Assembly (NCBI GenBank): GCA_022376925.1
Contig: JAIOJX010000030.1
Span: 173,285,298-173,349,297, forward strand
Length of the DNA stretch: 64,000 bases
From: Tragulus kanchil
Taxonomy: Eukaryota > Chordata > Mammalia > Artiodactyla > Tragulidae
Direction: 5' to 3'
In this document: positions 896-61,380 of the stretch, in pieces
Numbering within the stretch: the first letter of the stretch is position 1
Layout of the letters: every line of letters starts with the position of its first letter
Notes under the pieces: model-generated
The model's database searches: none
What the model saw: the letters and a program-made list of their open reading frames with translations, nothing else
What the model was told of the DNA's origin: nothing
Translations under genes and position numbers: made by a program

Positions 896-1607
896 TTAAC
901 TCCACTCGAAAGTATTTCAAATGTTAGGCATGAGAAATTTTAAAAACTTGATTTTATCTGTGGAAGTATGCAGAACCCATGAATGCCTGACACCAGCAAT
1001 GACAAAATGCTCAAGTGTTCACATTGTCTACTCTTCTTTCCAGCATCTTTATTTCTCTTCACCACAGTCATACTGAGATAAAAAATCTGGAATGGTCAAA
1101 TACACTCCTTTTCTCTATCATTTACACTTCTGATGATGAGGAATATGCTTACTCACACTGCAAATGGCACATTTGAGTTCTTTCAAGAACTGTTCCAAAT
1201 GCACACCTGGACTTGCTTGTAAACCTGGATCTTGAACTGACTGAAAACCCTGATAAGCAAGAGCCAACAAGGTCTCTGTGTCCAGCAAACACCTTATCAG
1301 ATTGTTAACTAGGCAAATTTAGTGCCTGCCCTCCAGATGCTCACTTTCTAGTAGATAATGATGTCAAAATAAACAAATAAATGATTTAATTTTAAAGAGT
1401 GCATAATTCCTATAAGAAAAGCTAAGCACATTAATGAGGCTAGAGTATTAGCTCAAAAAGTAAAGCCTAGAGGGAGGAAAAGTTACTTTTCTTACTATCC
1501 TAGGTCCCTATGAATTGTATTGACAAAACAGATTAACAAGAGAACAACATACAAATGCATTTACTATAAGCTGCACACAACAAGGGGGGTTTCAAAAAGG
1601 AAATGAA

Positions 1608-1890
1608 GGGGCTTCCCAGTGGTCCAGTGGGTGAGGAATCCGCCTTGCAGTGCAAGGGGCGTTGGTTAGGTCCCTGGCCTAGGAGGATCCCACGTGCTGC
1701 GGAGCGACTGGACCCATATGTCCAACTATCAAGCCAGAGCTCTGTAGCACATGCGCCCACAGCCAGTGCTCTGCAGCGAGAGAGGCCACTGCAATGGGAG
1801 GCTCATGCAGGCCGAAGACCAAAGATGGATTAAAATAAACAAATGAAAGACCAATAAAAGTGGCCAAAAAGTTAAAAAAAAAAAAAAAAA
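1608..1890 (+). mobile_element. CHR-type tRNA-derived SINE, full length, with TSD
   Basis: The head reads ggcttcccagtggtccagtg, the tRNA-derived part with a Pol III A-box-like tract, followed by a B-box-like region, a conserved body containing 'gtccaactatcaagccagag' and a tail ending in 'agtggccaaaaag' plus a poly-A run. The target-site duplication aaaaaggaaatgaa lies at 1594-1607 and 1886-1899, so this is a clean LINE-mediated insertion. Short ORFs here on both strands are SINE translation, not genes. Confidence 0.9.
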
Positions 1891-2003
1891 GGAAATGAAA
1901 CCTGAAGAAATATTTAAGCCTGAGCATTTTTATACAAGGCTTGATGAAGAATGGGAAGTCATCAAAAGCATGATAGGAAAATCAAGTATGAGCTAAGGGC
2001 AGT

Positions 2004-2058
2004 AAGGGCATCCTAGGCAGCACTAGTGGTAAAGAATCTGCTGCTAATGTAGGAAATA
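2004..2058 (+). mobile_element. Bov-tA SINE head, cut off at a junction
   Basis: This is the first about 55 bases of the Bov-tA element that is complete at 3169-3387. It stops abruptly at 2058, where sequence homologous to 896 onward restarts. The truncation is best explained by the assembly junction rather than by retroposition. Confidence 0.85.
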
Positions 2059-2769
2059 TTAACTCCACTCGAAAGTATTTCAAATGTTAGGCATGAGAAA
2101 TTTTAAAACTTGATTTTATCTGTGGAAGTATGCAGAACCCATGAATGCCTGACACCAGCAATGACAAAATGCTCAAGTGTTCACATTGTCTACTCTTCTT
2201 TCCAGCATCTTTATTTCTCTTCACCACAGTCATACTGAGATAAAAAATCTGGAATGGTCAAATACACTCCTTTTCTCTATCATTTACACTTCTGATGATG
2301 AGGAATATGCTTACTCACACTGCAAATGGCACATTTGAGTTCTTTCAAGAACTGTTCCAAATGCACACCTGGACTTGCTTGTAAACCTGGATCTTGAACT
2401 GACTGAAAACCCTGATAAGCAAGAGCCAACAAGGTCTCTGTGTCCAGCAAACACCTTATCAGATTGTTAACTAGGCAAATTTAGTGCCTGCCCTCCAGAT
2501 GCTCACTTTCTAGTAGATAATGATGTCAAAATAAACAAATAAATGATTTAATTTTAAAGAGTGCATAATTCCTATAAGAAAAGCTAAGCACATTAATGAG
2601 GCTAGAGTATTAGCTCAAAAAGTAAAGCCTAGAGGGAGGAAAAGTTACTTTTCTTACTATCCTAGGTCCCTATGAATTGTATTGACAAAACAGATTAACA
2701 AGAGAACAACATACAAATGCATTTACTATAAGCTGCACACAACAAGGGGGGTTTCAAAAAGGAAATGAA

Positions 2770-3052
2770 GGGGCTTCCCAGTGGTCCAGTGGGTGAGGAA
2801 TCCGCCTTGCAGTGCAAGGGGCGTTGGTTAGGTCCCTGGCCTAGGAGGATCCCACGTGCTGCGGAGCGACTGGACCCATATGTCCAACTATCAAGCCAGA
2901 GCTCTGTAGCACATGCGCCCACAGCCAGTGCTCTGCAGCGAGAGAGGCCACTGCAATGGGAGGCTCATGCAGGCCGAAGACCAAAGATGGATTAAAATAA
3001 ACAAATGAAAGACCAATAAAAGTGGCCAAAAAGTTAAAAAAAAAAAAAAAAA
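2770..3052 (+). mobile_element. CHR-type SINE, second copy within duplication A
   Basis: This is the same element as 1608-1890, displaced by 1162 bases with the same flanking TSD (aaaaaggaaatgaa at 2756-2769 and 3048-3061). Because element, TSD and flanks are all duplicated, it is a copy of the segment and not a second insertion. Confidence 0.9.
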
Positions 3053-3168
3053 GGAAATGAAACCTGAAGAAATATTTAAGCCTGAGCATTTTTATACAAG
3101 GCTTGATGAAGAATGGGAAGTCATCAAAAGCATGATAGGAAAATCAAGTATGAGCTAAGGGCAGTAAG

Positions 3169-3387
3169 GGCATCCTAGGCAGCACTAGTGGTAAAGAATC
3201 TGCTGCTAATGTAGGAAATATAAAAGACGAAGGTTCAATCCCTGGGTCAGGAAGATCTCCTGGAGGAGGAAATGGCACTCCACTCCAGTATTATTGCCTG
3301 GAGAATCCCATGGACAGTGGAGCCTGGCAGACTACAGTCCAGAGGGTCACAAAGAGTCGGACACGACTGAAACAACAGCACATACAC
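3169..3387 (+). mobile_element. Bov-tA SINE, full length, with TSD
   Basis: The tRNA-like head ('cagcactagtggtaaagaat') is followed by a B-box-like 'ggttcaatccctgggtcag' and a Bov-A body ending 'gagtcggacacgactgaa'. The imperfect TSD aagggcagtaag (3157-3168) / aagggtagtaag (3388-3399) matches at 11 of 12 positions. Bov-tA and Bov-A SINEs are known only from pecoran ruminants, so this is strong lineage evidence. Confidence 0.88.
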
Positions 3388-4260
3388 AAGGGTAGTAAGT
3401 TCAAGGAAACTGAGCACAGCCAGCATGCTCAGATTCCTCTTGGACATCACTCCATCTTTGGAGGTAAATAACTCCTTTACTCTTGGAATAGGGAAGGCCT
3501 CACATGAGAGCCTACTGACCAGTTTCAGGCGAGAAGCAGTAGGTCAGAAAGTCTTCATGCAACAGTTGTTTCTCAAATTCCTTCATTTTAAAAGATTCAA
3601 AGTGCTGCATTTCGAGGTCATGTGCTCAAAGTCTATCAAAGTCTATTTCTGAGAGGACCACAATTGGATGTGTATTTAAACTCTGCATGTTGAGAAGATA
3701 GATTATTCTGGCAGATGTAGTAGCTAGTTCAAAGGCTCCTAAGTGAGGATGCATCTGATTGGATTTTAGAAATAGAGCAAGACCATTGCAGCAGGACCAA
3801 AGATAGCAGGAAACAATATGGTGGAAAAATAGACAGGGTGCGCATCAACTAGACCTTATTGGCCATACAGATGTGGGAGTGTCTCACACAGAGGAGACAT
3901 GAGAACTAAGATGTATGTTGGAAAAGCCTCTCCATTGCTGCATAGGGATGCTACTATGGGACTAATTTACAGGAATACCTATGCTGAAGAGCAAGCGTAT
4001 GTAAAGGACTATATCCAAAGTTTGGTACAGAGAAGGAATCCAATCAATATTAGCTCATTGCTCTCACTTTCTGTTACGATGATGCAAGACCACAGTGTAT
4101 CCCAAGTCAATACAGAGGAAAGTGACCACATTTCTTGAGTCTGTTTAAATCTGCACTTCTGTTACGTGCCCTATGCATAAATTTTATACAAGGCTTGATG
4201 AAGAATGGGAAGTCATCAAAAGCATGATAGGAAAATCAAGTATGAGCTAAGGGCAGTAAG

Positions 4261-4479
4261 GGCATCCTAGGCAGCACTAGTGGTAAAGAATCTGCTGCTA
4301 ATGTAGGAAATATAAAAGACGAAGGTTCAATCCCTGGGTCAGGAAGATCTCCTGGAGGAGGAAATGGCACTCCACTCCAGTATTATTGCCTGGAGAATCC
4401 CATGGACAGTGGAGCCTGGCAGACTACAGTCCAGAGGGTCACAAAGAGTCGGACACGACTGAAACAACAGCACATACAC
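4261..4479 (+). mobile_element. Bov-tA SINE, second copy within duplication B
   Basis: Identical in position and flanks to 3169-3387, shifted by 1092. It includes the same imperfect TSD, so it is a segment copy and not an independent insertion. Confidence 0.88.
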
Positions 4480-4895
4480 AAGGGTAGTAAGTTCAAGGAA
4501 ACTGAGCACAGCCAGCATGCTCAGATTCCTCTTGGACATCACTCCATCTTTGGAGGTAAATAACTCCTTTACTCTTGGAATAGGGAAGGCCTCACATGAG
4601 AGCCTACTGACCAGTTTCAGGCGAGAAGCAGTAGGTCAGAAAGTCTTCATGCAACAGTTGTTTCTCAAATTCCTTCATTTTAAAAGATTCAAAGTGCTGC
4701 ATTTCGAGGTCATGTGCTCAAAGTCTATCAAAGTCTATTTCTGAGAGGACCACAATTGGATGTGTATTTAAACTCTGCATGTTGAGAAGATAGATTATTC
4801 TGGCAGATGTAGTAGCTAGTTCAAAGGCTCCTAAGTGAGGATGCATCTGATTGGATTTTAGAAATAGAGCAAGACCATTGCAGCAGGACCAAAGA

Positions 4896-7131
4896 TAGCA
4901 GGAAACAATATGGTGGAAAAATAGACAGGGTGCGCATCAACTAGACCTTATTGGCCATACAGATGTGGGAGTGTCTCACACAGAGGAGACATGAGAACTA
5001 AGATGTATGTTGGAAAAGCCTCTCCATTGCTGCATAGGGATGCTACTATGGGACTAATTTACAGGAATACCTATGCTGAAGAGCAAGCGTATGTAAAGGA
5101 CTATATCCAAAGTTTGGTACAGAGAAGGAATCCAATCAATATTAGCTCATTGCTCTCACTTTCTGTTACGATGATGCAAGACCACAGTGTATCCCAAGTC
5201 AATACAGAGGAAAGTGACCACATTTCTTGAGTCTGTTTAAATTGCCTTGCCTTATCATAAAAGTGATACACTCTCATGCATATAATTCATAAAATCATGA
5301 AGAACTATCATAAAGAATACAAGGAAAACCTGCAACCATAACTCTCTCAGACACAACTGCTAATGGTAGCCTTTTCCTTCTAGATTTTTCTGCACAATCA
5401 TATCCATATAACTGAGCTCACTGTATGTACACACCTCTGTATGCTATTACAGTTTTCTGTAGTAACTAAAGCAGTTAGATTCAAGAGTTTCTTAGAGCTC
5501 ACAGAATCTCTTTCCAGAAGCAAGGTGCTATGCAAAATCAATAGGATTGTCTCTACACATTTGTTTAACATGTTACAAATTGAATGTGCCTACGTTCTCA
5601 GTTAAATCTCAGTTCAGCTCTCTGACGTACAGAGGGCAAACCAGACTTTTTATACCAGTTTAACAGATGGGTAAACTGGGACTCAGTGGTTGATGAAAGT
5701 AGCTACATTTCAAATGACTGGGAAAATTCATGCTAAAACCTAGCTCTGTTTGTTTCTCACCCATCAAAGGTCCCACTAAACCCTCCTACCATCTCCTTCC
5801 TCTGTTAATCCTGAAGTCTTTTCTTCTCCATGTACTCTGGGGTCTCAGTCTTGGCCTCCATCTGCAGATCATTAAAAATATCAACTCTCAGGACTCATAC
5901 CAGATCTAATGATGCAGAACTTGCATTTAATAGTATCTCTAGATGATTCTTTAAAAATTAAGGTTTAAGGAGTGTGAAGTAATATACTTTAAATTAATTG
6001 GAGAAAGAGGCTAGCAGGAAACAATATGGTGGAAAAATAGAAAAAGGGTGGGGGCATCAACTAGACCTTACTGGCCAAACAGATGTGGGAGTGTCTCACA
6101 CAGAGGATACATGAGAACTAAGATGTATGTTGGAAAAGCCTCTCCATTGCTGCATAGGGATGCTACTATGGGACTAATTTACAGGAATACCTATGCTGAA
6201 GAGCAAGCGTATGTAAAGGACTATATCCAAAGTTTGGTACAGAGAAGGAATCCAATCAATATTAGCTCATTGCTCTCACTTTCTGTTACGATGATGCAAG
6301 ACCACAGTGTATCCCAAGTCAATACAGAGGAAAGTGACCACATTTCTTGAGTCTGTTTAAATTGCCTTGCCTTATCATAAAAGTGATACACTCTCATGCA
6401 TATAATTCATAAAATCATGAAGAACTATCATAAAGAATACAAGGAAAACCTGCAACCATAACTCTCTCAGACACAACTGCTAATGGTAGCCTTTTCCTTC
6501 TAGATTTTTCTGCACAATCATATCCATATAACTGAGCTCACTGTATGTACACACCTCTGTATGCTATTACAGTTTTCTGTAGTAACTAAAGCAGTTAGAT
6601 TCAAGAGTTTCTTAGAGCTCACAGAATCTCTTTCCAGAAGCAAGGTGCTATGCAAAATCAATAGGATTGTCTCTACACATTTGTTTAACATGTTACAAAT
6701 TGAATGTGCCTACGTTCTCAGTTAAATCTCAGTTCAGCTCTCTGACGTACAGAGGGCAAACCAGACTTTTTATACCAGTTTAACAGATGGGTAAACTGGG
6801 ACTCAGTGGTTGATGAAAGTAGCTACATTTCAAATGACTGGGAAAATTCATGCTAAAACCTAGCTCTGTTTGTTTCTCACCCATCAAAGGTCCCACTAAA
6901 CCCTCCTACCATCTCCTTCCTCTGTTAATCCTGAAGTCTTTTCTTCTCCATGTACTCTGGGGTCTCAGTCTTGGCCTCCATCTGCAGATCATTAAAAATA
7001 TCAACTCTCAGGACTCATACCAGATCTAATGATGCAGAACTTGCATTTAATAGTATCTCTAGATGATTCTTTAAAAATTAAGGTTTAAGGAGTGTGAAGT
7101 AATATACTTTAAATTATTTGTAGAAAGAGGC
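4896..7131. repeat. Tandem duplication C, period 1116-1120
   Basis: Copy 1 is 4896-6011 and copy 2 is 6012-7131, joined across the shared bases 'ctag'. The first about 100 bases of copy 2 differ from copy 1 by a scrambled tract near 6040-6060, substitutions and a net four-base gain; after that the copies agree closely. The first 345 bases of copy 1 also lie in copy 2 of duplication B, so 3805-4150, 4896-5242 and 6012-6362 form a triplicate. No gene is recognised. Confidence 0.95.
5640..5705 (+). repeat. Possible MIR fragment
   Basis: The phrase 'aacagatgggtaaactggga' resembles the MIR core-SINE motif normally read as 'acagatgaggaaactgagg'. It is short and diverged, so the call is tentative. 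It recurs at about 6760-6825 in the second copy of duplication C. Confidence 0.4.
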
Positions 7132-7550
7132 TAGAAGGACCAAAATAATTATATGGTGACCACTCTTAGTCTTATTCTACAAGCTGAACTCAATTTATTG
7201 ATTTCCTACAGAAGACAGGAAAAAAATAGTAAAATAGTAATTCTGAGCTAAAATAGTTCTCTTGGCCATGTATTTATTATTCTCTAAAATGCAACACAAA
7301 AATGAGTCATTAACTCAAATAAAAACCATTAGATTAAGGGGTAAGCAAAGTTTACATTATAAAAATAATCTGCAGGAAGACTAATTCATATAATAATGAC
7401 ATGTGAATAAATATTCATGTCAACAATTTTATTAGCAAAAGGCAAACAAAACCCTTAATGCAATCACAAGGGATTGGTTAAGACAATTATGGAAAATCTA
7501 CAGAATGTCAAACTATTTGGTCATCTAAAAAGATACAATACTAAGGAACA

Positions 7551-7767
7551 GGATCCCCTGGTGACTCAGTGATAAAAATCTGCCTGCCAGTGCAGGAAAC
7601 ACAGGTTCGACCCCTGGGTCAGGAAGATACCTTGGAGAAGGAAATGACAACCTACTCTAGTATTCTTTCCCAGGAAATCCACGGACAGAGAAACCTGGTG
7701 AGCTACAGTCCATGGGGTCGCAAAGAGATGGACAAGCTTTAGTGACTAAACAAGTAACAACAACAAT
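7551..7767 (+). mobile_element. Bov-tA SINE
   Basis: The head 'ggatcccctggtgactcagt' is followed by 'ggttcgacccctgggtcagg' (B-box-like), the Bov-A body and the tail 'ccatggggtcgcaaagagat' with an ACA-rich end. It is moderately diverged from the 3169 element. No clear TSD was found. Confidence 0.85.
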
Positions 7768-8674
7768 GTTACGGAATGCCCTCTCAGGTACTGCTGAGTG
7801 AAACCAAGCAAACTGTGTTATTCATGTGTATGTAAAAATATATTTAAAGACACAAATATGGCTGTAAATATATATATAACATTTCTGGAGAAATATACAA
7901 TGCATTAGCAACTTATTTTTGTGGGAGGGGAGTGACTTAAAACACAAGAGAGACTTGCATTTTACCATGCATGTTTATATATTTTGAATGGTGTAAAATA
8001 TCAACTCTCAGGACTCATACCAGATCTACCATCGTCCATTCCTCTTTGTTAATCCTGAAGTCTTTTCTTCTCCATGTACTCTGGGGTCTCAGTCTTGGCC
8101 TCCATCTGCAGATCATTAAAAATATCAACTCTCAGGACTCATACCAGATCTAATGATGCAGAACTTGCATTTAATAGTATCTCTAGATGATTCTTTAAAA
8201 ATTAAGGTTTAAGGAGTGTGAAGTAATATACTTTAAATTATTTGTAGAAAGAGGCTAGAAGGACCAAAATAATTATATGGTGACCACTCTTAGTCTTATT
8301 CTACAAGCTGAACTCAATTTATTGATTTCCTACAGAAGACAGGAAAAAAATAGTAAAATAGTAATTCTGAGCTAAAATAGTTCTCTTGGCCATGTATTTA
8401 TTATTCTCTAAAATGCAACACAAAAATGAGTCATTAACTCAAATAAAAACCATTAGATTAAGGGGTAAGCAAAGTTTACATTATAAAAATAATCTGCAGG
8501 AAGACTAATTCATATAATAATGACATGTGAATAAATATTCATGTCAACAATTTTATTAGCAAAAGGCAAACAAAACCCTTAATGCAATCACAAGGGATTG
8601 GTTAAGACAATTATGGAAAATCTACAGAATGTCAAACTATTTGGTCATCTAAAAAGATACAATACTAAGGAACA

Positions 8675-8891
8675 GGATCCCCTGGTGACTCAGTGATAAA
8701 AATCTGCCTGCCAGTGCAGGAAACACAGGTTCGACCCCTGGGTCAGGAAGATACCTTGGAGAAGGAAATGACAACCTACTCTAGTATTCTTTCCCAGGAA
8801 ATCCACGGACAGAGAAACCTGGTGAGCTACAGTCCATGGGGTCGCAAAGAGATGGACAAGCTTTAGTGACTAAACAAGTAACAACAACAAT
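8675..8891 (+). mobile_element. Bov-tA SINE, second copy within duplication D
   Basis: The same element as 7551-7767, shifted by 1124 with identical flanks. It is a segment copy. Confidence 0.85.
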
Positions 8892-9128
8892 GTTACGGAA
8901 TGCCCTCTCAGGTACTGCTGAGTGAAACCAAGCAAACTGTGTTATTCATGTGTATGTAAAAATATATTTAAAGACACAAATATGGCTGTAAATATATATA
9001 TAACATTTCTGGAGAAATATACAATGCATTAGCAACTTATTTTTGTGGGAGGGGAGTGAGTGACTTAAAAACACAAGAGAGACTTGCATTTTACCATGCA
9101 TGTTTATATATTTTGAATGGTGTAAAAT

Positions 9129-9715: not shown

Positions 9716-10002
9716 GGCTTCCCTGGTGGTCCAGTTGGTAAACAGTCCACCTTGCAGTGCAAGGGGCACCGGTTCAAGCCTTGGCCAGGAAGATCCCATG
9801 TACCACAGAGTGGCTGGACCAGTGTGTCCAGTTACTAGCCAACACTCTGAAGCACATGCACCCAGAACCAGTGCTTTGCAATGGGAGAGGCCACTGCAGT
9901 GGGAGTCCCACAAAGGCCAAAGAATGAGGATGGATGAAAATAAATAAATAAACCAATTAAAAAAAAAAAAATAGAGGCCAAAAATTAAAAGAAAAAAAAA
10001 AA
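9716..10002 (+). mobile_element. CHR-type SINE with A-rich tail
   Basis: The head 'gcttccctggtggtccagtt' is followed by the conserved body ('gtgtccagttactagccaac') and a compound A-rich tail interrupted by 'tagaggccaaaaattaaaag'. It appears to have a short TSD (aaaaaaggt before and after), which is weak because it is A-rich. The tail alone is repeated at about 11069-11107 because duplication E starts inside it. Confidence 0.88.
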
Positions 10003-10233
10003 GGTCTTCCTGTAACTATTTTTAAAATAAAGATTCCAGTCCAAATGTTTTATTTTCTTTATTCCTAAACAGTACCCTCAGTTTTCTGAGAGTTTGTGGT
10101 AAGGATAGGAAGGCTCTGATTCTTATGCCAAACCAATGTACATGGATTTTGTGAGGTAAAACTGGTGGAGAGGACAGGTGATGATGGTGATGATGTTGTG
10201 ACACTACAATTTGTTTCCCTTACACATGCTAGC

Positions 10234-10349
10234 TGAAGAAGAAACTGGTAGCCCACCGCAATATTCCTGCCTGTAGATTCCCATGGATGGACCAACCTGG
10301 CAGTCCATGGGGTCACGAAGAGTCAGATATGACTAAACGACTAACACAC
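10234..10349 (+). mobile_element. Bov-A SINE, 5'-truncated, with TSD
   Basis: The element begins in the Bov-A body ('gtagcccaccgcaatattcc') and ends 'gagtcagatatgactaaacg' plus a CA-rich tail. An exact 12-base TSD acacatgctagc lies at 10222-10233 and 10350-10361, so this is a genuine 5'-truncated insertion. Confidence 0.88.
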
Positions 10350-11337
10350 ACACATGCTAGCAAGTGACACATGACGCTGATCTGAAATAATCCTTTAAAT
10401 GCTTCAATTTCTATCGTAATTGAGGTGGCACCTAGGGGACCACAGCAATTAAAAAGAGGGCATGCTCCTCCTAGAATATCTTTTTTTTTTTTTTTCTCTG
10501 ATGGTGGAGAACATCCTTTAATGACCACTGCAAATGCAATCCTTTCAAGAAGCCATTTCCAATGACCTCAATCCAATGCTACTTAGCCTTCTGTGAATTA
10601 CTACTATATACTCTTACATGTATTATGAAATGTCACATTCTCATATGACATAACTGAGTTATATTTTCTTTCCTACTACAGCATTTGCTATCTGAGCACA
10701 AGGTTGCATCTTGTTAATTTTTATATCTGCAAAAAATATTTCATAGTGAGTAGGCATTCAACAAAATATTAATTCATCACGCCATTCAATAAGCAAAAGG
10801 TTTCCCCCAAATCCACTTCAAGCTACACGATAAAACAACTCAGTCTGTAACTGAAAAGCAACTAACTACAGAAGGAACACATTTGATCAACAAAGAAATT
10901 GCTTCTATAAAGACCTCTACCACACTGGGAATTCATTTTCTGCAGCTACCCTATTACTGAATTTCGTTCAAAAAGAAACACCACCATTTGTACAAACTAA
11001 GGTAAATTATGCTCTAAACTTGCAATACATACAAATTAGCAGGTTATTTTCAAATAGCTAGCTTCACTTAAAAAAAAATAGAGGCCAAAAATTAAAAGAA
11101 AAAAAAAAGGTCTCTGGAACTATTTTTAAAATAAAGATTCCAGTCCAAATGTTTTATTTTCTTTATTCCTAAACAGTACCCTCAGTTTTCTGAGAGTTTG
11201 TGGTAAGGATAGGAAGGCTCTGATTCTTATGCCAAACCAATGTACATGGATTTTGTGAGGTAAAACTGGTGGAGAGGACAGGTGATGATGGTGATGATGT
11301 TGTGACACTACAATTTGTTTCCCTTACACATGCTAGC

Positions 11338-11453
11338 TGAAGAAGAAACTGGTAGCCCACCGCAATATTCCTGCCTGTAGATTCCCATGGATGGACCAAC
11401 CTGGCAGTCCATGGGGTCACGAAGAGTCAGATATGACTAAACGACTAACACAC
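11338..11453 (+). mobile_element. Bov-A SINE, second copy within duplication E
   Basis: The 10234-10349 element shifted by 1104, with TSD at 11326-11337 and 11454-11465. It is a segment copy. Confidence 0.88.
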
Positions 11454-11881
11454 ACACATGCTAGCAAGTGACACATGACGCTGATCTGAAATAATCCTTT
11501 AAATGCTTCAATTTCTATCGTAATTGAGGTGGCACCTAGGGGACCACAGCAATTAAAAAGAGGGCATGCTCCTCCTAGAATATCTTTTTTTTTTTTTTTC
11601 TCTGATGGTGGAGAACATCCTTTAATGACCACTGCAAATGCAATCCTTTCAAGAAGCCATTTCCAATGACCTCAATCCAATGCTACTTAGCCTTCTGTGA
11701 ATTACTACTATATACTCTTACATGTATTATGAAATGTCACATTCTCATATGACATAACTGAGTTATATTTTCTTTCCTACTACAGCATTTGCTATCTGAG
11801 CACAAGGTTGCATCTTGTTAATTTTTATATCTGCAAAAAATATTTCATAGTGAGTAGGCATTCAACAAAATATTAATTCAT

Positions 11882-14207
11882 CACGCCATTCAATAAGCAA
11901 AAGGTTTCCCCCAAATCCACTTCAAGCTACACGATAAAACAACTCAGTCTGTAACTGAAAAGCAACTAACTACAGAAGGAACACATTTGATCAACAAAGA
12001 AATTGCTTCTATAAAGACCTCTACCACACTGGGAATTCATTTTCTGCAGCTACCCTATTACTGAATTTCGTTCAAAAAGAAACACCACCATTTGTACAAA
12101 CTAAGGTAAATTATGCTCTAAACTTGCAATACATACAAATTAGCAGGTTATTTTCAAATAGCTAGCTTCACTTGGGTTCTTATTTGCACCTGTTTAAAAA
12201 GTTCATCCTCCTTGAATGCATGTATTTATTCAAAAACCAAATGCTCAAAACAATTTAACAAATATAGAATAGAGATTTTTGTTTCAAATTGGAACCGCAA
12301 GACAAGGGAAAAATTTACAGTGACATTAATAACTAATGACTCAATCAAAAATTGATTTGAGACGAATTAACAAAGATGAAAGTCAAATTGAGGCTCATTT
12401 TTGTCTGTCTAGAAGAGTCAAAGGAGAATGAAAACCATTAAGTGCTAAAATGTTGAAAGAAATTGCACATTTAATTCATAATCTTTACACTTATTTTGAA
12501 ATTATTTCAGTGAGTTATTTTTAAATACACAAAAACATATAGACAATTTTTTAATATAAAGACATTTAACATTCATCAAGCCTCTATATTGAGTTATTCA
12601 ACAGAGGTATCTGATGTATATCTGACCTCTCACAGCATGAGAGACTGAATGAGTTTTGAAATAGACAAGTGGAGAATTAAAAACAATTTGTACCCTCTTG
12701 GTTGGCTCTCTACCCCCTTACTAAGCTTTCGCCTTGTCGTTTGCTTGGCCATCCACGCAGTGCTTCTCAGCTTCTCAGGTTAGTAATAGCATCCTTCCTC
12801 AACTTCCCTTTTCATTTGCTTGAGGAAGTTATCTTACTACACCTTAACAACAAAAAGTACTGACTCACTCCAGTATGCGAAGCAATTTATTGTTGGGAAA
12901 AAAGGTGGAACCGGGTTCTGAAAGAGGAGAAGCCTGACTCCTCTGGCCTTTTAGGAAGCAGAAACAACTGGATAGTCTGTTTGAGGATACAACCCACTTG
13001 ATAATGCCCCTTTCATTTTCCCTGTTCATCCTTGTTTTAGTGAGTAGGCAAAAATAAACACGCCATTCAATAAGCAAAAGGTTTCCCCCAAATCCACTTC
13101 AAGCTACACGATAAAACAACTCAGTCTGTAACTGAAAAGCAACTAACTACAGAAGGAACACATTTGATCAACAAAGAAATTGCTTCTATAAAGACCTCTA
13201 CCACACTGGGAATTCATTTTCTGCAGCTACCCTATTACTGAATTTCGTTCAAAAAGAAACACCACCATTTGTACAAACTAAGGTAAATTATGCTCTAAAC
13301 TTGCAATACATACAAATTAGCAGGTTATTTTCAAATAGCTAGCTTCACTTGGGTTCTTATTTGCACCTGTTTAAAAAGTTCATCCTCCTTGAATGCATGT
13401 ATTTATTCAAAAACCAAATGCTCAAAACAATTTAACAAATATAGAATAGAGATTTTTGTTTCAAATTGGAACCGCAAGACAAGGGAAAAATTTACAGTGA
13501 CATTAATAACTAATGACTCAATCAAAAATTGATTTGAGACGAATTAACAAAGATGAAAGTCAAATTGAGGCTCATTTTTGTCTGTCTAGAAGAGTCAAAG
13601 GAGAATGAAAACCATTAAGTGCTAAAATGTTGAAAGAAATTGCACATTTAATTCATAATCTTTACACTTATTTTGAAATTATTTCAGTGAGTTATTTTTA
13701 AATACACAAAAACATATAGACAATTTTTTAATATAAAGACATTTAACATTCATCAAGCCTCTATATTGAGTTATTCAACAGAGGTATCTGATGTATATCT
13801 GACCTCTCACAGCATGAGAGACTGAATGAGTTTTGAAATAGACAAGTGGAGAATTAAAAACAATTTGTACCCTCTTGGTTGGCTCTCTACCCCCTTACTA
13901 AGCTTTCGCCTTGTCGTTTGCTTGGCCATCCACGCAGTGCTTCTCAGCTTCTCAGGTTAGTAATAGCATCCTTCCTCAACTTCCCTTTTCATTTGCTTGA
14001 GGAAGTTATCTTACTACACCTTAACAACAAAAAGTACTGACTCACTCCAGTATGCGAAGCAATTTATTGTTGGGAAAAAAGGTGGAACCGGGTTCTGAAA
14101 GAGGAGAAGCCTGACTCCTCTGGCCTTTTAGGAAGCAGAAACAACTGGATAGTCTGTTTGAGGATACAACCCACTTGATAATGCCTCCATCCCTGTTCCA
14201 TCCTTGT
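11882..14207. repeat. Tandem duplication F, period 1177
   Basis: Copy 1 is 11882 to about 13038 and copy 2 is 13059 to about 14207. The last about 30 bases of copy 1 align only roughly with copy 2, and are followed by about 20 bases of filler containing 'agtgagtaggc', itself found at about 10747 and 11850. The first about 290 bases also occur in both copies of duplication E, making a triplicate (from 10778, 11882 and 13059). Content is AT-rich non-coding DNA with no recognised gene. Confidence 0.95.
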
Positions 14208-15988: not shown

Positions 15989-16195
15989 AAATAAGTTTAA
16001 CTGCACTAAAAATCTTGTGTTTGTAGGATACTGATTTTAAATTAACCCCCAGGCAAGCTACCAAAATAGTTATAATAGTAACAAAAACGACCACAATAAT
16101 ATTAAAAAGCAGGAAAGAAAATCAGGAAAGTCAATAGAAACACTGAAAAGAAACTCCAAGTCTGTATTAATAGCTCATTTGAATTTAATAGCAGA

Positions 16196-43704: not shown

Positions 43705-43924
43705 GCATCATTGTCGTCATCATTTAGTCGCTAACTCATGTCTGACTCTTCTGCGACTCCATGGACTGTAGCCCACCAGGCTCCTTCCTCCATGGGATTT
43801 CCCAGGCAAAAATACTGGAGCTGGTCGCCATTTCCTTCACCAGGGGATCTTCCCGACTCAGAGACCAAACCATGTCTCCTGCATTGCAGGCAAATTCTTT
43901 ACCAGTGAGCCACCAGGGAAGCCC
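43705..43924 (-). mobile_element. Bov-tA SINE, antisense, full length, with TSD
   Basis: Runs from 'catttagtcgctaactcatg' through 'catggactgtagcccaccag' to 'agtgagccaccagggaagcc'. The TSD ctaattgacat (43694-43704) / ctaattgatat (43925-43935) matches at 10 of 11 positions. Confidence 0.88.
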
Positions 43925-46268: not shown

Positions 46269-46602
46269 TGTCTTAATACAACAATTGCACTTTCCATGAT
46301 ACATTGTGATTGACCCTTCAAGACTTTCAGCAGAAGTAATATATTTCCACAGTGAGATGATTACACCTGCTCTTGTATCCGTGAGTATCAGAAGGTAGGA
46401 GTTGGAGATCTACAGAACTTAATATTAGAAGTACAGCATTAGTGGTTTAAACTTAGAGGAGTGAGAAGCGCCTTCATCAAACAAAGTGGGCAGCAGCGTG
46501 GGGCTAGACTGGGCAGGCACTGGCTTGGTCTGGCCAGTGCAGCTGACTGGCACAGAGCTTTAGTATTTTAAAGGGCAATGAATTTGAGGGCAATGACTAA
46601 GT
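46269..46602. other. Single-copy non-coding DNA
   Basis: A short GC-richer patch ('gtgggcagcagcgtggggct') lies near 46484-46560. No repeat or gene is recognised. Confidence 0.55.
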
Positions 46603-49689: not shown

Positions 49690-51936
49690 AAATGAAAAAA
49701 AGTTCAGAGGGAACAGGAAAACATGGAAGAAGCTCAGAAATATTCATGATGCATGAGTTAATAAAAGAGGATGACAAGCTACCCTAAGCGGGGGGAATGA
49801 AGGCGCAACAATATTGCTGACTGTTGAATGTGAACTTACTTGATCTAGAGAATGTTAAGAATTTCTTCTTATTCCTACCTTTGCTTATATTTCAAAGGCA
49901 TCAAGAGCCTTTGCATTCACTGAATGGGCCTTAAATAATTCTTCCATTCTATCACAAGGCTTCTGATTGCCCTCAAGACTCAAGCTGAATTCTTCATAAT
50001 CTTCTCCCCTGGTGAATATCAATGTGGAAAATATGTTTCATTCAAACTTCTGATAAATGGAGGAAAACAGATCATAGACTCAGAAATTTTATGTTAATTT
50101 TTGGTGAAAATACAGTTTCTTCTTTGTTGTTTCATGGATGAATGCTAAACTTCTAGGAGACTAAGAACATCTGCTAATGCTATAGTAGCAAAATCAAGAA
50201 ATCAAAATGTCTCAGGAGAAACAAGCGGAGAATGCTACAAGGAAAAATCAGTCAACCATGCTGAGTGTCTCTGAGTCAGCAAGAATAGTGTGATCCTTAT
50301 AACTGACCACATGAAGGTTGCTGAATTTTGAAAAAAGGAATTTCAATGAAGTTTTCTACCAAAAGACCTATTTTAACAAGATTAGGAGTAAATGAAAGTG
50401 AGGAACTTGATACATTTTATATAGAGCTATTTCTGGAAGCTATTTCTGGAAGTTAATAACTATTTCTGGAAGTTCTGAAAAAAAATAGTGCAAATACAGA
50501 AGAGAGATATAAGATCAAAGGGAGGATCTATTCTCTTTCAGGTGATGTTTTGTCATTTATTGTTACCTCTGTTTAGATGAGGAAGGGAAGGGTCTTTGTA
50601 TTCTGATGGGAATAATCCTGGAGAGTGAGGGAAGATATGAGCTGAGTAGGAAAATCTTCAAAGGAGTTGTAACTGGTCATAGAAGAAAAAGTGAACACAA
50701 TAAGGGAAAGTTTGGGGAATTGGTGGAAAGATATGGAAAGCAACAGATTTCTTTTGTTACTGAAAACATAGGAAGGCTGATAAGCTGATAGTGAGGAATG
50801 GGGAAGAGGGATAAAATGAAAAAAGTTCAGAGGGAACAGGAAAACATGGAAGAAGCTCAGAAATATTCATGATGCATGAGTTAATAAAAGAGGATGACAA
50901 GCTACCCTAAGCGGGGGGAATGAAGGCGCAACAATATTGCTGACTGTTGAATGTGAACTTACTTGATCTAGAGAATGTTAAGAATTTCTTCTTATTCCTA
51001 CCTTTGCTTATATTTCAAAGGCATCAAGAGCCTTTGCATTCACTGAATGGGCCTTAAATAATTCTTCCATTCTATCACAAGGCTTCTGATTGCCCTCAAG
51101 ACTCAAGCTGAATTCTTCATAATCTTCTCCCCTGGTGAATATCAATGTGGAAAATATGTTTCATTCAAACTTCTGATAAATGGAGGAAAACAGATCATAG
51201 ACTCAGAAATTTTATGTTAATTTTTGGTGAAAATACAGTTTCTTCTTTGTTGTTTCATGGATGAATGCTAAACTTCTAGGAGACTAAGAACATCTGCTAA
51301 TGCTATAGTAGCAAAATCAAGAAATCAAAATGTCTCAGGAGAAACAAGCGGAGAATGCTACAAGGAAAAATCAGTCAACCATGCTGAGTGTCTCTGAGTC
51401 AGCAAGAATAGTGTGATCCTTATAACTGACCACATGAAGGTTGCTGAATTTTGAAAAAAGGAATTTCAATGAAGTTTTCTACCAAAAGACCTATTTTAAC
51501 AAGATTAGGAGTAAATGAAAGTGAGGAACTTGATACATTTTATATAGAGCTATTTCTGGAAGCTATTTCTGGAAGTTAATAACTATTTCTGGAAGTTCTG
51601 AAAAAAAATAGTGCAAATACAGAAGAGAGATATAAGATCAAAGGGAGGATCTATTCTCTTTCAGGTGATGTTTTGTCATTTATTGTTACCTCTGTTTAGA
51701 TGAGGAAGGGAAGGGTCTTTGTATTCTGATGGGAATAATCCTGGAGAGTGAGGGAAGATATGAGCTGAGTAGGAAAATCTTCAAAGGAGTTGTAACTGGT
51801 CATAGAAGAAAAAGTGAACACAATAAGGGAAAGTTTGGGGAATTGGTGGAAAGATATGGAAAGCAACAGATTTCTTTTGTTACTGAAAACATAGGAAGGC
51901 TGATAAGCTGATAGTGAGGAATGGGGAAGAGGGATA
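49690..51936. repeat. Tandem duplication R, period 1123
   Basis: Copy 1 is 49690-50812 and copy 2 is 50813-51936, joined at the shared 'aaaatgaa' tract with one A missing in copy 2. The copies are otherwise near-identical and include the small ctatttctggaag repeat. Confidence 0.95.
50427..50472. repeat. Three copies of a 13-base unit
   Basis: ctatttctggaag occurs at 50427-50439, 50440-50452 and 50460-50472. The same trio lies 1123 bases downstream in the second copy of duplication R. Confidence 0.9.
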
Positions 51937-52108
51937 AGAAGTTAAAATAACTCTACAATTTTAAATGGTAAAATCACCATAAATAAAGAGAGAGCAGCAA
52001 GATTCATTCTTGAAGAGGTAATAATCTTTCAGTGCATTTAGTTGGCAGTGCATGAATGACATCCAGGTACTGTTAGCCAAGTTCTCAGAAATAAAATATG
52101 ACAATGTG

Positions 52109-52379
52109 GGGCTTTCCTGGTGGTCCAGTCAGTGGAGGCTCCACTTTGCAGTGCAGGGGGCAGTGGTTGGATCCCTGGCCCGGGCGGATCCCCACATGCC
52201 ATGGAGCAGCTGGACCAGTGTGTCCAATTGCATGCCGGTGCTCTGGAGTGCATGCGCCCAGAGCCAGTGCTCTGCAACAAGAGGACACTGCAATGGGAGG
52301 CCCATACAAATTGAAGAATAAAGACAGATGAAAAATAAAGAAAAAATCAATAAAAAGAGGCCAAAAATTTTTAAAAAAT
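52109..52379 (+). mobile_element. CHR-type SINE with 13-base TSD
   Basis: The head 'ggctttcctggtggtccagt' is followed by the body ('gtgtccaattgcatgccggt') and a tail with 'gaggccaaaaatttttaaaa'. The TSD atatgacaatgtg is exact at 52096-52108 and 52380-52392. The many overlapping ORFs at 52038-52350 on both strands are this SINE. Confidence 0.92.
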
Positions 52380-53222
52380 ATATGACAATGTGAAAGAATT
52401 ATTAGGACTAAAGGTTCAGATCAGCTATTATCCAGGCAGTGATAATAGCTGAACCCTAAGAATTAGATGACACAGACATAGAAGATAGGGAAAGAGTAGA
52501 AAAGATGAGCAAGAACAGCGCCTTTGGGAAATGTCTATACTTATGGAATAGAAGCAAGAAGTTGATGCAGAAGAAATAGAACAGTGGTGCCTACGAACCA
52601 AAGAGGACCAGAATTGTGATGCAACAAAGAAATGGAATCGTGAAGTCCAAAGGCTAAAGAAATGTTGAGAGAAAGATCAACTACGTAATCTCAATGGATT
52701 TAGCAGGTAGGGGTCATTTCAGAAAACTCTTTCAGCAGATTAATAAGGGTAATATATCCAGACTCTATTCTCTTTCAGGTGATGTTTTGTCATTTATTGT
52801 TACCTCTGTTTAGATGAGGAAGGGAAGGGTCTTTGTATTCTGATGGGAATAATCCTGGAGAGTGAGGGAAGATATGAGCTGAGTAGGAAAATCTTCAAAG
52901 GAGTTGTAACTGGTCATAGAAGAAAAAGTGAACACAATAAGGGAAAGTTTGGGGAATTGGTGGAAAGATATGGAAAGCAACAGATTTCTTTTGTTACTGA
53001 AAACATAGGAAGGCTGATAAGCTGATAGTGAGGAATGGGGAAGAGGGATAAGAAGTTAAAATAACTCTACAATTTTAAATGGTAAAATCACCATAAATAA
53101 AGAGAGAGCAGCAAGATTCATTCTTGAAGAGGTAATAATCTTTCAGTGCATTTAGTTGGCAGTGCATGAATGACATCCAGGTACTGTTAGCCAAGTTCTC
53201 AGAAATAAAATATGACAATGTG

Positions 53223-53492
53223 GGGCTTTCCTGGTGGTCCAGTCAGTGGAGGCTCCACTTTGCAGTGCAGGGGGCAGTGGTTGGATCCCTGGCCCGGGCG
53301 GATCCCACATGCCATGGAGCAGCTGGACCAGTGTGTCCAATTGCATGCCGGTGCTCTGGAGTGCATGCGCCCAGAGCCAGTGCTCTGCAACAAGAGGACA
53401 CTGCAATGGGAGGCCCATACAAATTGAAGAATAAAGACAGATGAAAAATAAAGAAAAAATCAATAAAAAGAGGCCAAAAATTTTTAAAAAAT
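53223..53492 (+). mobile_element. CHR-type SINE, second copy within duplication S
   Basis: The 52109 element shifted by 1114, one base shorter, with the same TSD (53493-53505 on the right). It is a segment copy. Confidence 0.92.
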
Positions 53493-54239
53493 ATATGACA
53501 ATGTGAAAGAATTATTAGGACTAAAGGTTCAGATCAGCTATTATCCAGGCAGTGATAATAGCTGAACCCTAAGAATTAGATGACACAGACATAGAAGATA
53601 GGGAAAGAGTAGAAAAGATGAGCAAGAACAGCGCCTTTGGGAAATGTCTATACTTATGGAATAGAAGCAAGAAGTTGATGCAGAAGAAATAGAACAGTGG
53701 TGCCTACGAACCAAAGAGGACCAGAATTGTGATGCAACAAAGAAATGGAATCGTGAAGTCCAAAGGCTAAAGAAATGTTGAGAGAAAGATCAACTACGTA
53801 ATCTCAATGGATTTAGCAGGTAGGGGGTCATTTCAGAAAACTCTTTCAGCAGATTAATAAGGGTAATATATCCAGACTCCACAAATTAAACAATATTTGA
53901 AAGGAAGTTAACAGCTGGCAATTTCTTTTGAAAAGTTCCTTGGAGAGAATGGGAGAGTTAGACTAGTAGTTTGAAGAGGTGGCAGAATCAAGGAATTTAA
54001 TGTATTCATCAGAATGAAGACATTAACGTAATTATAGGAAGAACTGAAATGTCAGGGGAAAGACAGAAATTGAAAACATCAATAAGAATGAAGATAATGG
54101 ATAAAGTGAGCCTTCTTCCATCCCAACAAAAAAAAATGCTTTGGCTACGTCTTACCTGCAAACAGTTCTCAGAACCTTCCTCCTCTTGTGGAAAAAATGG
54201 GGGATGAGAGGATGGTCATATCCCAGATGTCAAGTGAAT

Positions 54240-55665: not shown

Positions 55666-56161
55666 TAAATCTCCTCCTCTTATCCATGATGAAACAGTGT
55701 CAGGTGTGAGGAGAATCAGATTGGACTTGGAGACATAAGGCAGCAGAAAACCTTAGGCACAGCTGCACAGTGGCATGTCTCAAGAGTCAGGAATAAAGTA
55801 AGTTAAATGAAAGATTGTGAGTGGTCTTCCTAGAGCAGGCCTGGCAAGTTAGTAAACTGGGACTGAGTTTCCCAGAACTCACTCCCCTATGAAGCGTTGG
55901 CCATAAACAGACAGTATGTGTAAGATGTGGAAGATGGGAGAGAAGCATCAGCAGTATCCTTTATCAGACTAGCACTGAGAGCAGGGCACCAGCACGTGCT
56001 CAGCTGCATGCCTGCTGGTGTGGGGCCACGGCCCAGTGCCCCTCTACCCAGTGCTTCCAGCACCCTGAGGATCTGTGAGACCTCTCCAAATGCCAGGTCA
56101 CCAAGTACAGCCCCTAAGGCATCAACCAGGTCTGTAGCTCCTCCTGCCATTGCATCTCCTC

Positions 56162-58405
56162 CTCCCGCATTTCCACTCCTGGGCCAGTGAGCGTTCATCT
56201 CCATGACTCAGAAATCCAGCCTCTCTTGCAGGTCACCTGCAGATCTGAAAGCAGAGGTTTTGCTGGTGGTGAGAGAGGGAATGGATGCCAGCTTTCTTAC
56301 CTGTTGTTGACACTTTGCCTTGTTCCCTCCACTTTCCTTCCACTCTTCCTGATGACTTCAGCCCCAGCAGGAGACATGGAAGCAACAGGCATTCCTGAAA
56401 GTGTTTAGCCAGCTCCACAATAGCATATGTCACAGCCCCACAAGAAACCCTGAATTCTATATCGTTCTTATCGTTTTTTGCTTCTTGGCTAGCAGTCTTC
56501 AAGACAAATGGGCCTAACTGATGGAAGGAAACATAGAATAAGTTGGCACTTGTAGTACTATCCAACACTGATCTAAAAATACAAGCAATAAATAAAAAAT
56601 CAATAATCAATAAATGGTGGACAAAGCCCTGTGAAGGGACTAGATCCATAAGAACTGCTGAAGAGGCCACTGCAATGGGAGGCCCACGCAGGCCAAAGAA
56701 CAAAGATGGATGAAAATAAATGATGACTTAGAGGCAAAAAAAGGAAAAAAAAAAAACATAGCCTAGGTGAGACTAATCTCATTCATGTCTATATATGTAT
56801 ATTTATACACAAATTTATTAAATAAATATTGTTAAACACATAATGTGTTATTCAAAAGGCCCTAATTATACACAGAATCTTCTCCCCAGTTTAACTGCAA
56901 ATGCCAGAAATGATAGATTCTTAATGGTAGGAGTAACCATAAAACTAAAGGTGCAACTTGTCAGACAAATTTGAATTGAACTAACTGATGTAACGTGGAA
57001 TAGAAAAGCAGGCAAGTTTAGGTGAACTTAAAGAGAATATATACCTGAGAGATGACTCTCAAGTGGAACCACAAAAGGCGTCCAAACAAAAATGAGCATC
57101 TAGGAAGAGAAGACGGATGGCGCCGTCTCAGGATAGCTCCCAGGAGAGTTATCTGCAGGCTGTCTTATGGATGGTCCTGCCTAACTGGGGAGACACTTCT
57201 TTTCTCTGCCAAGAGAACTGGTGCCTAATCTAAACAGAATGCTCTTTACACAGAGTAAGTTATTTTCTGGATCACTAGATCTGGGCACTCTCCTCCGCAT
57301 TTCCACTCCTGGGCCAGTGAGCGTTCATCTCCATGACTCAGAAATCCAGCCTCTCTTGCAGGTCACCTGCAGATCTGAAAGCAGAGGTTTTGCTGGTGGT
57401 GAGAGAGGGAATGGATGCCAGCTTTCTTACCTGTTGTTGACACTTTGCCTTGTTCCCTCCACTTTCCTTCCACTCTTCCTGATGACTTCAGCCCCAGCAG
57501 GAGACATGGAAGCAACAGGCATTCCTGAAAGTGTTTAGCCAGCTCCACAATAGCATATGTCACAGCCCCACAAGAAACCCTGAATTCTATATCGTTCTTA
57601 TCGTTTTTTGCTTCTTGGCTAGCAGTCTTCAAGACAAATGGGCCTAACTGATGGAAGGAAACATAGAATAAGTTGGCACTTGTAGTACTATCCAACACTG
57701 ATCTAAAAATACAAGCAATAAATAAAAAATCAATAATCAATAAATGGTGGACAAAGCCCTGTGAAGGGACTAGATCCATAAGAACTGCTGAAGAGGCCAC
57801 TGCAATGGGAGGCCCACGCAGGCCAAAGAACAAAGATGGATGAAAATAAATGATGACTTAGAGGCAAAAAAAGGAAAAAAAAAAAACATAGCCTAGGTGA
57901 GACTAATCTCATTCATGTCTATATATGTATATTTATACACAAATTTATTAAATAAATATTGTTAAACACATAATGTGTTATTCAAAAGGCCCTAATTATA
58001 CACAGAATCTTCTCCCCAGTTTAACTGCAAATGCCAGAAATGATAGATTCTTAATGGTAGGAGTAACCATAAAACTAAAGGTGCAACTTGTCAGACAAAT
58101 TTGAATTGAACTAACTGATGTAACGTGGAATAGAAAAGCAGGCAAGTTTAGGTGAACTTAAAGAGAATATATACCTGAGAGATGACTCTCAAGTGGAACC
58201 ACAAAAGGCGTCCAAACAAAAATGAGCATCTAGGAAGAGAAGACGGATGGCGCCGTCTCAGGATAGCTCCCAGGAGAGTTATCTGCAGGCTGTCTTATGG
58301 ATGGTCCTGCCTAACTGGGGAGACACTTCTTTTCTCTGCCAAGAGAACTGGTGCCTAATCCTTGATCTAAACAGAATGCTCTTTACACAGAGTAAGTTAT
58401 TTTCC
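56162..58405. repeat. Tandem duplication T, period 1130
   Basis: Copy 1 is about 56162-57266 and copy 2 is 57296 to about 58405, with filler 57267-57295 ('atcactagatctgggcactc'). Copy 1 lacks 'cttgat' near its end ('gcctaatctaaac' against 'gcctaatccttgatctaaac'). The 156-residue minus-strand ORF occurs in both copies (56233-56703, 57363-57833), starts inside a reversed SINE tail and is not a gene. Confidence 0.95.
56650..56758 (+). mobile_element. CHR-type SINE 3' fragment
   Basis: Contains 'aggccactgcaatgggaggc' and 'aggccaaagaacaaagatgg' with an A-rich tail, the 3' body of the long CHR subtype without its tRNA head. It is repeated at about 57780-57888. Confidence 0.85.
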
Positions 58406-58759
58406 TGGGAAGCATCCACTATGTGGATGCTGAAGCTGTTGAGAGGAAAGTGAGTCAAAATAACTTCAAGCCTATATGAGATATTCAGAGAGAAATGAAG
58501 GGAATCCCAACATGGGAGGCAGGGAAAAGCATGTGAAAATACTCCATTCATAAAGAAGATACTTCTTACCTGGGTAATTATATGAGCTCTAAGAAAATCA
58601 TCCTACTCCAATGTCAACCATGATAAAAAAAAAAAATCCTGATAGTGGATCAGATTTCCCACTTACACAGAAACCACAGCAGCTTTTCGATTCAGTGAAA
58701 TAGTATTTTAGGTAAATAGACACTGGTGCCTAAAACAAACTTTTACTACTTGTCTGTAA

Positions 58760-58763
<4 letters not shown>

Positions 58764-58791
<28 letters not shown>
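58764..58791. repeat. (TA)13 dinucleotide microsatellite
   Basis: A pure TA run of 27 bases. The second copy at about 59863-59890 has the same length. Dinucleotide runs mutate quickly, so equal length argues against an old duplication. Confidence 0.9.
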
Positions 58792-58794
<3 letters not shown>

Positions 58795-59034
58795 ATGAAC
58801 AATTAATAAACATTTGAGGCATACAATGGAAAGATAATAATAAATTACATATACAAGAAGAAACATATAATGTAATAAATAGAAAGGAATTAAGATCCTA
58901 ATTTATGTCTTCAGCATGATAAAGATGATGCTGAAGTAAAAAGAAAAGTCTAAGTAAAAAGAAAATATCATATTACCATGAAATTGAAGAATTCAGACAA
59001 CTAGACAGAGTCTTTGAAATTAAAAATATGTTCC

Positions 59035-59340
59035 TGTAAACCACTTCAGACCCAAAGACACATATAGACTGAAAGTGAAAGGATGAGAAAACATATTCCA
59101 TGCAAATGGAAACCAAAAGAAAGCTGGAGTAACACTCCTCATATCAGACAAAATAAACCTTAAAATAAATAAGATTATAAGAGACAAGGCAAGACACGAC
59201 ATAATGATCAAGTGATCAATCCAAGAGGAAGACATAACAAATGAAACAACCAACAAAGAATTAATTTCCAAAATATACAAGCAGCTCAGACAACTCAACA
59301 CCAAAAAGCCCCAAACAACCCAATCAAAAAATGGGAAAAA
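59035..59340 (+). mobile_element. L1 fragment cut off at a junction
   Basis: L1 ORF2-like sequence ('gacccaaagacacatataga', 'gctggagtaacactcctcat') followed by 'caacaccaaaaagccccaaa'. It breaks at 59340 because copy 1 of duplication U ends here; the intact continuation follows from 60438. Confidence 0.85.
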
Positions 59341-59856
59341 GACAATGGCGCCGTCTCAGGATAGCTCCCAGGAGAGTTATCTGCAGGCTGTCTTATGGAT
59401 GGTCCTGCCTAACTGGGGAGACACTTCTTTTCTCTGCCAAGAGAACTGGTGCCTAATCCTTGATCTAAACAGAATGCTCTTTACACAGAGTAAGTTATTT
59501 TCTGGGAAGCATCCACTATGTGGATGCTGAAGCTGTTGAGAGGAAAGTGAGTCAAAATAACTTCAAGCCTATATGAGATATTCAGAGAGAAATGAAGGGA
59601 ATCCCAACATGGGAGGCAGGGAAAAGCATGTGAAAATACTCCATTCATAAAGAAGATACTTCTTACCTGGGTAATTATATGAGCTCTAAGAAAATCATCC
59701 TACTCCAATGTCAACCATGATAAAAAAAAAAAATCCTGATAGTGGATCAGATTTCCCACTTACACAGAAACCACAGCAGCTTTTCGATTCAGTGAAATAG
59801 TATTTTAGGTAAATAGACACTGGTGCCTAAAACAAACTTTTACTACTTGTCTGTAA

Positions 59857-59891
<35 letters not shown>

Positions 59892-60130
59892 ATGAACAAT
59901 TAATAAACATTTGAGGCATACAATGGAAAGATAATAATAAATTACATATACAAGAAGAAACATATAATGTAATAAATAGAAAGGAATTAAGATCCTAATT
60001 TATGTCTTCAGCATGATAAAGATGATGCTGAAGTAAAAGAAAAGTCTAAGTAAAAAGAAAATATCATATTACCATGAAATTGAAGAATTCAGACAACTAG
60101 ACAGAGTCTTTGAAATTAAAAATATGTTCC

Positions 60131-61380
60131 TGTAAACCACTTCAGACCCAAAGACACATATAGACTGAAAGTGAAAGGATGAGAAAACATATTCCATGCA
60201 AATGGAAACCAAAAGAAAGCTGGAGTAACACTCCTCATATCAGACAAAATAAACCTTAAAATAAATAAGATTATAAGAGACAAGGCAAGACACGACATAA
60301 TGATCAAGTGATCAATCCAAGAGGAAGACATAACAAATGAAACAACCAACAAAGAATTAATTTCCAAAATATACAAGCAGCTCAGACAACTCAACACCAA
60401 AAAGCCCCAAACAACCCAATCAAAAAATGGGGAAAAGACCTAAACAGACATCTCTCCAAAGAAGACATACGCATGGCCAACAATCACATGAAAAGATGCT
60501 TAACATCACTCATTGTTACAGACACGCAAATCAAAACTAAAATGAGGTATCACCTCACACCAGTCAGAATGGCCATCATCAAAACATCCACAGAAAATAA
60601 ATGCTGTAAAGGGTATGGGGAAATGGGAACCCTCTTGCACTGTTGGTAGGAATGTAAACTGACACAGCCACTATGGAAGACAGGATGGAGATTCCTTGAA
60701 AAACTAGGAATAGAACCACCCATGTATGGCCTAGGAACCCTACTACTAGGGTATATACTCAGGTATATACCCTGAGGAAATCAAAATTGAAAGACATACA
60801 TGTACCCCATTGTTCACTGTAGCACTACCTACAATAGCTAGAACTTGGAAGCAACCTAGATGTCCATCAACAGATGAATGGATAAAGAATCTGTGATATA
60901 TATATTCAATGGAATATTACTCAGCCATAAAGAATGCATTTGAATCAATCCTAATGAGGTAGATGAACCTAGAAACTATTATAGAGTGAAGTAAGTCAGA
61001 AAGAGAAGGCAAATATTTTGTACTGACACATATATATGCAATCTAGAAATGTGGTGCTAATGAATGTATATTCAGAGCAGCAATGGAAAACCAGACACAC
61101 AAAACAAACTTATGAACATTTAAGGGAGGGAGGAGTGGGTGAGATGCATGGAAAAAGGAACATGGAAACTTACATTACCATATGTAAAATGAACACCCAA
61201 TGGGAATCTGCTGTAAGGCTAAGGGAACTCAAACAGGGGCTCTGTAACAACCTAGAGAGGTGGGATGGGGAGGGAGATGGGAGGGAAGTTCAAGAGGAAG
61301 GAGACATATGATACCTATGGCTGATTTAGATTCATGTGTGGCAGTAAACAACAAAACTCTGTAAAGGAAAAAAAAAAATT
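60131..61380 (+). mobile_element. 5'-truncated L1, ORF2 3' part and 3' UTR
   Basis: Contains the conserved L1 ORF2 tract 'caaatcaaaactaaaatgag', 'agaatggccatcatcaaaac', 'cttgcactgttggtaggaat', 'caacagatgaatggataaag' and 'gaatattactcagccataaa', then a 3' UTR with 'gaacaggggctctgtaac'-like sequence and a poly-A at about 61369-61379. The reverse-transcriptase part is missing and an internal deletion is likely near 60335. It is non-functional. The 91-residue ORF at 61036-61311 lies in the 3' UTR. Confidence 0.88.

Follow-up and report, generated by a model that had tools for sequence, protein, structure and literature searches.

A 64,000-nucleotide stretch of the Tragulus kanchil assembly GCA_022376925.1 (contig JAIOJX010000030.1, positions 173,285,298 to 173,349,297 of the forward strand; hereafter the window) contains segments of about 1.1 kb that each appear twice in direct head-to-tail order, and raises the question of whether these pairs belong to the genome of the animal or were created during its assembly. 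Comparison of the window with itself by megablast, in which direct matches longer than 150 bases were considered, displayed 21 such pairs spanning 895-60439, with periods of 1084-1223 bases and identities of 98.9-100%. The 21 tandem pairs placed at 896-60438 by an earlier note on this DNA, with periods of 1.08-1.22 kb and near-identity, were reproduced to within one base, and the sequence of about 23.6 kb that the note considered to be added agreed with the summed period of the pairs (23,667 bases). Second copies accounted for 36.7% of the window bases, and the repeat recurred roughly every 3 kb of assembly sequence. Near-identical matches of 1.1 kb cannot have originated by chance. Judged within the sequence of this one assembly, the pairs are read with very high confidence as unmerged overlaps between assembly pieces, whatever the origin of these pieces, and the repeats are almost certainly absent from the actual animal.

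The remaining direct matches of the window were seven, all at distances of 2.2-2.3 kb, where neighbouring pairs shared sequence. Inverted matches were limited to two, at 78% identity, and the window had no N. Extended by 10 kb on either side, the region (84 kb) contained 26 pairs. All 21 pairs of the earlier note were found, but the window encompassed 22 junctions rather than 21, the note having missed one at about base 32 whose copy A lies almost wholly outside; a further junction was located at about 64652, just beyond the right end. Tandem Repeats Finder reported only small arrays in the window, and the 21 pairs were absent from its output because its longest period was limited to 500.

The duplicated segments were spread through the large contigs regardless of sequence. 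The assembly comprises 3,167,203,957 bases in 32 contigs, 16 of which are 73-297 Mb long. Outside the window region, 17 stretches totalling 134 kb were sampled from the large contigs, each of the 16 being represented, and small contigs were left aside. At least one pair was found in 15 of the 17 stretches, on 14 of the 16 large contigs, and second copies made up 26.5% of the sampled bases (bootstrap 95% interval 21.1-30.6%). With second copies removed, as extrapolated from these stretches, the assembly would shrink from 3.17 to about 2.33 Gb (interval 2.20-2.50). Four further small loci were left out of the counts, one of which (L004) had a pair.

A second sample relied on a 20-base pattern, eight positions of which were free; it occurred at 152 places on the plus strand. 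Among the first 50 matches listed, all on contigs C1-C6, 11 neighbouring pairs shared identical letters at a distance of 1070-1153 bases; besides those 11 a single neighbouring pair was less than 20 kb apart. Among the same 50 matches, 11 of the 39 distinct places were doubled, a proportion similar to that obtained from the stretches. One identical 20-base match recurred 4523 bases apart (C5:93684497 and 93689020), outside the 1.1-kb class, and could be a real repeat.

Pooling the 84-kb stretch with the 134-kb sample (218 kb) and retaining pairs with periods of 950-1400 bases and identity above 96% gave 61 pairs, of which 54 were complete within their stretch; counts below refer to these 54 unless stated. 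Their periods ranged from 1073 to 1236 bases with a median of 1113, the distribution being cut off abruptly at its lower end and only briefly drawn out at its upper end. Unfiltered match lists for the window and the sampled stretches held no second near-identical class except the matches at 2.2-2.3 kb; the few matches of 78-92% identity, found at various other spacings, resemble common interspersed repeats. In the 84-kb stretch, the pieces between junctions were 1.85-5.3 kb long (median 2.96 kb). Several were shorter than two overlaps (e.g., 1846, 1952, 1978, 1997 and 2026 bases), so that some bases were present three times, which accounts for the 2.2-2.3 kb matches. At the junctions themselves, the aligned copies either overlapped slightly or were separated by a spacer of at most 68 unmatched bases. 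Spacers no shorter than 12 bases numbered 25; seven of these resembled the bases preceding copy A or those following copy B more closely than 99% of random stretches did, and the spacers are read as garbled piece ends.

Differences between copies were gathered at the piece ends facing the junctions. Within 100 columns of the alignment ends abutting a junction lay 153 of the 238 differences, while 18% would be expected there under an even spread. Over the 25 columns nearest to the two ends the difference rate was as high as 37 and 30 per kb, and it dropped to about 1 per kb between columns 100 and 200. Gap events were strongly sided: in the first 100 columns 50 fell in copy B and 11 in copy A, and in the last 100 columns 33 fell in copy A and 13 in copy B. 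The copy touching the junction is therefore usually the defective one. Gaps on the junction side would be predicted if the pieces were separate consensus sequences, thinly covered near their ends, and would not be predicted by real duplication. In the interior of the alignments (at least 150 columns from either end), 41 of the 54 pairs had no substitution. All 61 pairs together showed 153 indel events and 108 substitutions. The pair at L006:1409-3548 harbored 21 substitutions, far above the other pairs, and may consist of two alleles or two repeat copies.

The process that most likely produced this pattern can be outlined as follows. The assembly would have been laid out as a chain of pieces of about 2-5 kb, neighbours overlapping by a near-fixed length of about 1.1 kb, and these pieces would have been written end to end with the overlap untrimmed, so that each overlap would occur in two copies, closing one piece and opening the following one. 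Such an identity between the end of a piece and the start of its successor, in direct orientation, was indeed found at the 21 pairs of the window and the 26 of the 84-kb stretch. That the overlap hardly varies in length and has a firm minimum is indicative of an assembler parameter. The software step that fits best would be that of a wtdbg2-like fuzzy-Bruijn-graph assembler for long reads, with adjacent layout units sharing one node. Nodes in wtdbg2 are 1024 bases long (four 256-base bins), successive layout units share one node, and the consensus program normally merges these units in its output. Where raw reads tend to lose bases, one node of 1024 bases would equal about 1.07-1.1 kb of consensus or true sequence; the floor of 1073 and the median of 1113 match such a node only if the raw reads fall about 5-8% short of the true sequence. 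Layout or consensus units are preferred to ordinary contigs because the pieces are short and the overlaps uniform, and this version of the unmerged overlaps, with its wtdbg2-like software, is considered probable.

Two other versions of unmerged overlaps were considered. A scaffolder meeting negative gaps might have butted ordinary short contigs together with no merging, and the same tandem pairs and poor contig ends would be expected from it. Such overlaps should vary widely, however, while those of the 54 complete pairs were confined to 1073-1236 bases; contigs with a median of 2.96 kb would be unusual beneath contigs of 73-297 Mb; and the window is devoid of N, though a small locus elsewhere (L003) has 62. 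A scaffolding origin thus appears unlikely. Gap filling, if it pasted long-read patches with about 1 kb of flank retained on each side, would fit in that flanks would be constant in length and patches poor at their ends. Because both edges of a patch would be doubled, patches should exceed two flanks, yet several pieces are shorter and leave stretches in three copies, and we regard this origin as distinctly improbable. The explanation of the earlier note, that neighbouring contigs were joined with their overlaps unmerged, held for the overlaps, which are borne out by their spread, narrow length, end errors and lack of nesting in the 84-kb stretch, but ordinary contigs fit less well than consensus or layout units.

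Real and recent tandem duplications, arising genome-wide at a fixed length by an unknown process, would share the clean head-to-tail structure and the near-identity. A quarter of the sampled bases would then be freshly duplicated, and a biological cause is not credible because these bases are doubled at one length; the piling up of differences at the ends facing the junctions also argues against it. None of the 26 duplicated segments in the pair list of the 84-kb stretch held the junction of another, and the closest junctions were about 1845 bases apart. In 20,000 simulated histories of 26 random duplications of the observed sizes, about 5 duplications were expected to swallow an earlier junction; only 47 histories were without nesting, and in every history some junctions lay closer together than 1845 bases. 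Genuine duplications would be recognized by variable length, some nesting and evenly spread differences, none of which was found. Real duplication was rejected on the spread of the pairs, the clustering of errors at piece ends and the missing nesting in the 84-kb stretch, and is given a vanishingly small probability. Heterotype false duplication, in which both alleles are retained side by side, would account for substitutions in the interior of 13 of the 54 pairs, but the other 41 lack them and retained alleles alone give no fixed length of 1.1 kb. It is very unlikely here, and allelic duplication as a general cause was ruled out by the interior identity.

Several observations weigh against unmerged overlaps as a full account of the pairs. 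The interior differences of the 13 pairs (49 substitutions, of which 26 were transitions and 23 transversions, with 21 in one pair) lie beyond what end errors explain and may be allelic, and more than 200 columns from the ends differences become more frequent again, at about 2 per kb, mostly through substitutions. Part of the end clustering, but not the sidedness of the gaps, could be caused by BLAST extension into unmatched sequence. Only 67 of the 153 indels fell in homopolymer runs (at least 3 bases), a figure with no control rate for comparison, and, among the 25 spacers compared with their two expected neighbours, 18 were unlike either. Regarding the sample, stretch positions were picked by hand at round numbers rather than by a random generator, and two of the 17 stretches, both of only 4 kb (contigs C26 and C30), had no pair. 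The implied size of 2.33 Gb (2.20-2.50) is also somewhat low for a ruminant, genomes of this group usually being about 2.4-2.8 Gb.

The individual pairs, obtained by megablast, are given here in window coordinates as copy A and copy B, with period in bases and identity in brackets. The window starts within a pair at 1-1270 (1236, 99.8%), whose copy B is included at 32-1270 and whose copy A, starting about 1.2 kb before the window, is represented only by its last bases, up to 33. Pair 1 occupies 895-2059 and 2058-3221, with its junction at about 2058 (1163, 99.9%), followed by pair 2 at 3090-4158 and 4182-5248 (1092, 99.8%), pair 3 at 4896-6019 and 6012-7139 (1116, 98.9%), pair 4 at 6906-7999 and 8026-9128 (1120, 99.2%) and pair 5 at 9963-11069 and 11070-12173 (1107, 99.6%). 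Pair 6 lies at 11882-13035 and 13059-14207 (1177, 99.3%), and the copies of pair 7, at 16195-17317 and 17318-18440, are identical (1123, 100%). Next come pair 8 at 19705-20761 and 20791-21845 (1086, 99.8%), pair 9 at 22986-24093 and 24091-25192 (1105, 99.5%), pair 10 at 25032-26219 and 26211-27393 (1179, 99.5%) and pair 11 at 28718-29809 and 29803-30894 (1085, 99.9%).

The longest period of the 21 numbered pairs belongs to pair 12, at 32439-33633 and 33662-34854 (1223, 99.6%). It is followed by pair 13 at 36765-37942 and 37939-39114 (1174, 99.8%), pair 14 at 38884-39983 and 40004-41103 (1120, 99.5%), pair 15 at 41721-42781 and 42805-43869 (1084, 99.4%) and pair 16 at 43973-45109 and 45126-46266 (1153, 99.6%). 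Pair 17 was found at 46599-47696 and 47687-48781 (1088, 99.3%), pair 18 at 49688-50814 and 50812-51937 (1124, 99.9%) and pair 19 at 51650-52765 and 52764-53879 (1114, 99.8%). Pair 20, at 56152-57270 and 57285-58408 (1133, 99.0%), and pair 21, at 58233-59343 and 59334-60439 (1101, 99.4%), precede a last one at 63514-64000, whose copy A is cut by the window end and whose junction is the one at about 64652 (1140, 99.6%).

Regarding gene content, no Rfam family reached its gathering score in the window. Stop-to-stop frames of at least 110 amino acids numbered 21, and a Pfam search with 10 of them returned a single match below threshold (DAGAT, E 0.049, with 13 bits where the cut-off is 22). Among the small contigs, C14, C16 and C25 have round lengths (200000, 242000 and 225000 bases), and may be pieces cut along a fixed bin grid in Hi-C scaffolding. 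The sixteen chromosome-sized contigs suggest few, perhaps fused, chromosomes, with 2n about 30-32.

The artefact is ordinary in kind and extreme in scale, and the repeats themselves carry no biology. By the sample taken, roughly a quarter of the assembly is likely to consist of false second copies, and gene models, exon counts, maps of segmental duplications, copy-number calls and statements on genome size based on it would therefore be wrong. The assembly is unsafe for work on duplication, copy number and gene structure. It is tentatively proposed that the failure to merge overlaps was systematic, in which case the whole assembly would be inflated by about one third and assemblies from the same pipeline may be affected as well, with false duplications of genes and exons silently created. 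Other assemblies could be quickly screened for this fault by self-alignment at a lag of 1.05-1.25 kb.

Titles and abstract openings of the literature on assembly faults held no account of this exact fault, which is weak evidence of absence as most subscription papers fell outside it. The pairs resemble the intermediate products of wtdbg2 and wtpoa-cns in that overlapping long-read layout units needing a merge appear to be present, with a 1024-base node close to the observed overlap; in contrast to the usual output of these programs, in which the units are normally merged, the units would here have been left unmerged. Contigs are described as being computed by wtdbg2 as overlapping read sequences, and their consensus by wtpoa-cns (PMC12037172). 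False duplications are a familiar fault and have been split into heterotype and homotype kinds in a study that lists false duplication at 0.3-15.9% across six assemblies, the homotype kind reaching at most 2.7% (PMC9516828, Genome Biol. 2022). The pairs described here come closest to the homotype kind in that sequence was doubled by assembly rather than by biology and in that the false copies are more error-rich. Compared with the homotype cases of that study, no N separates the copies in the present window, and the pairs are unlike them in being far denser and of near-fixed length, with second copies making up about 26% of the sampled bases.

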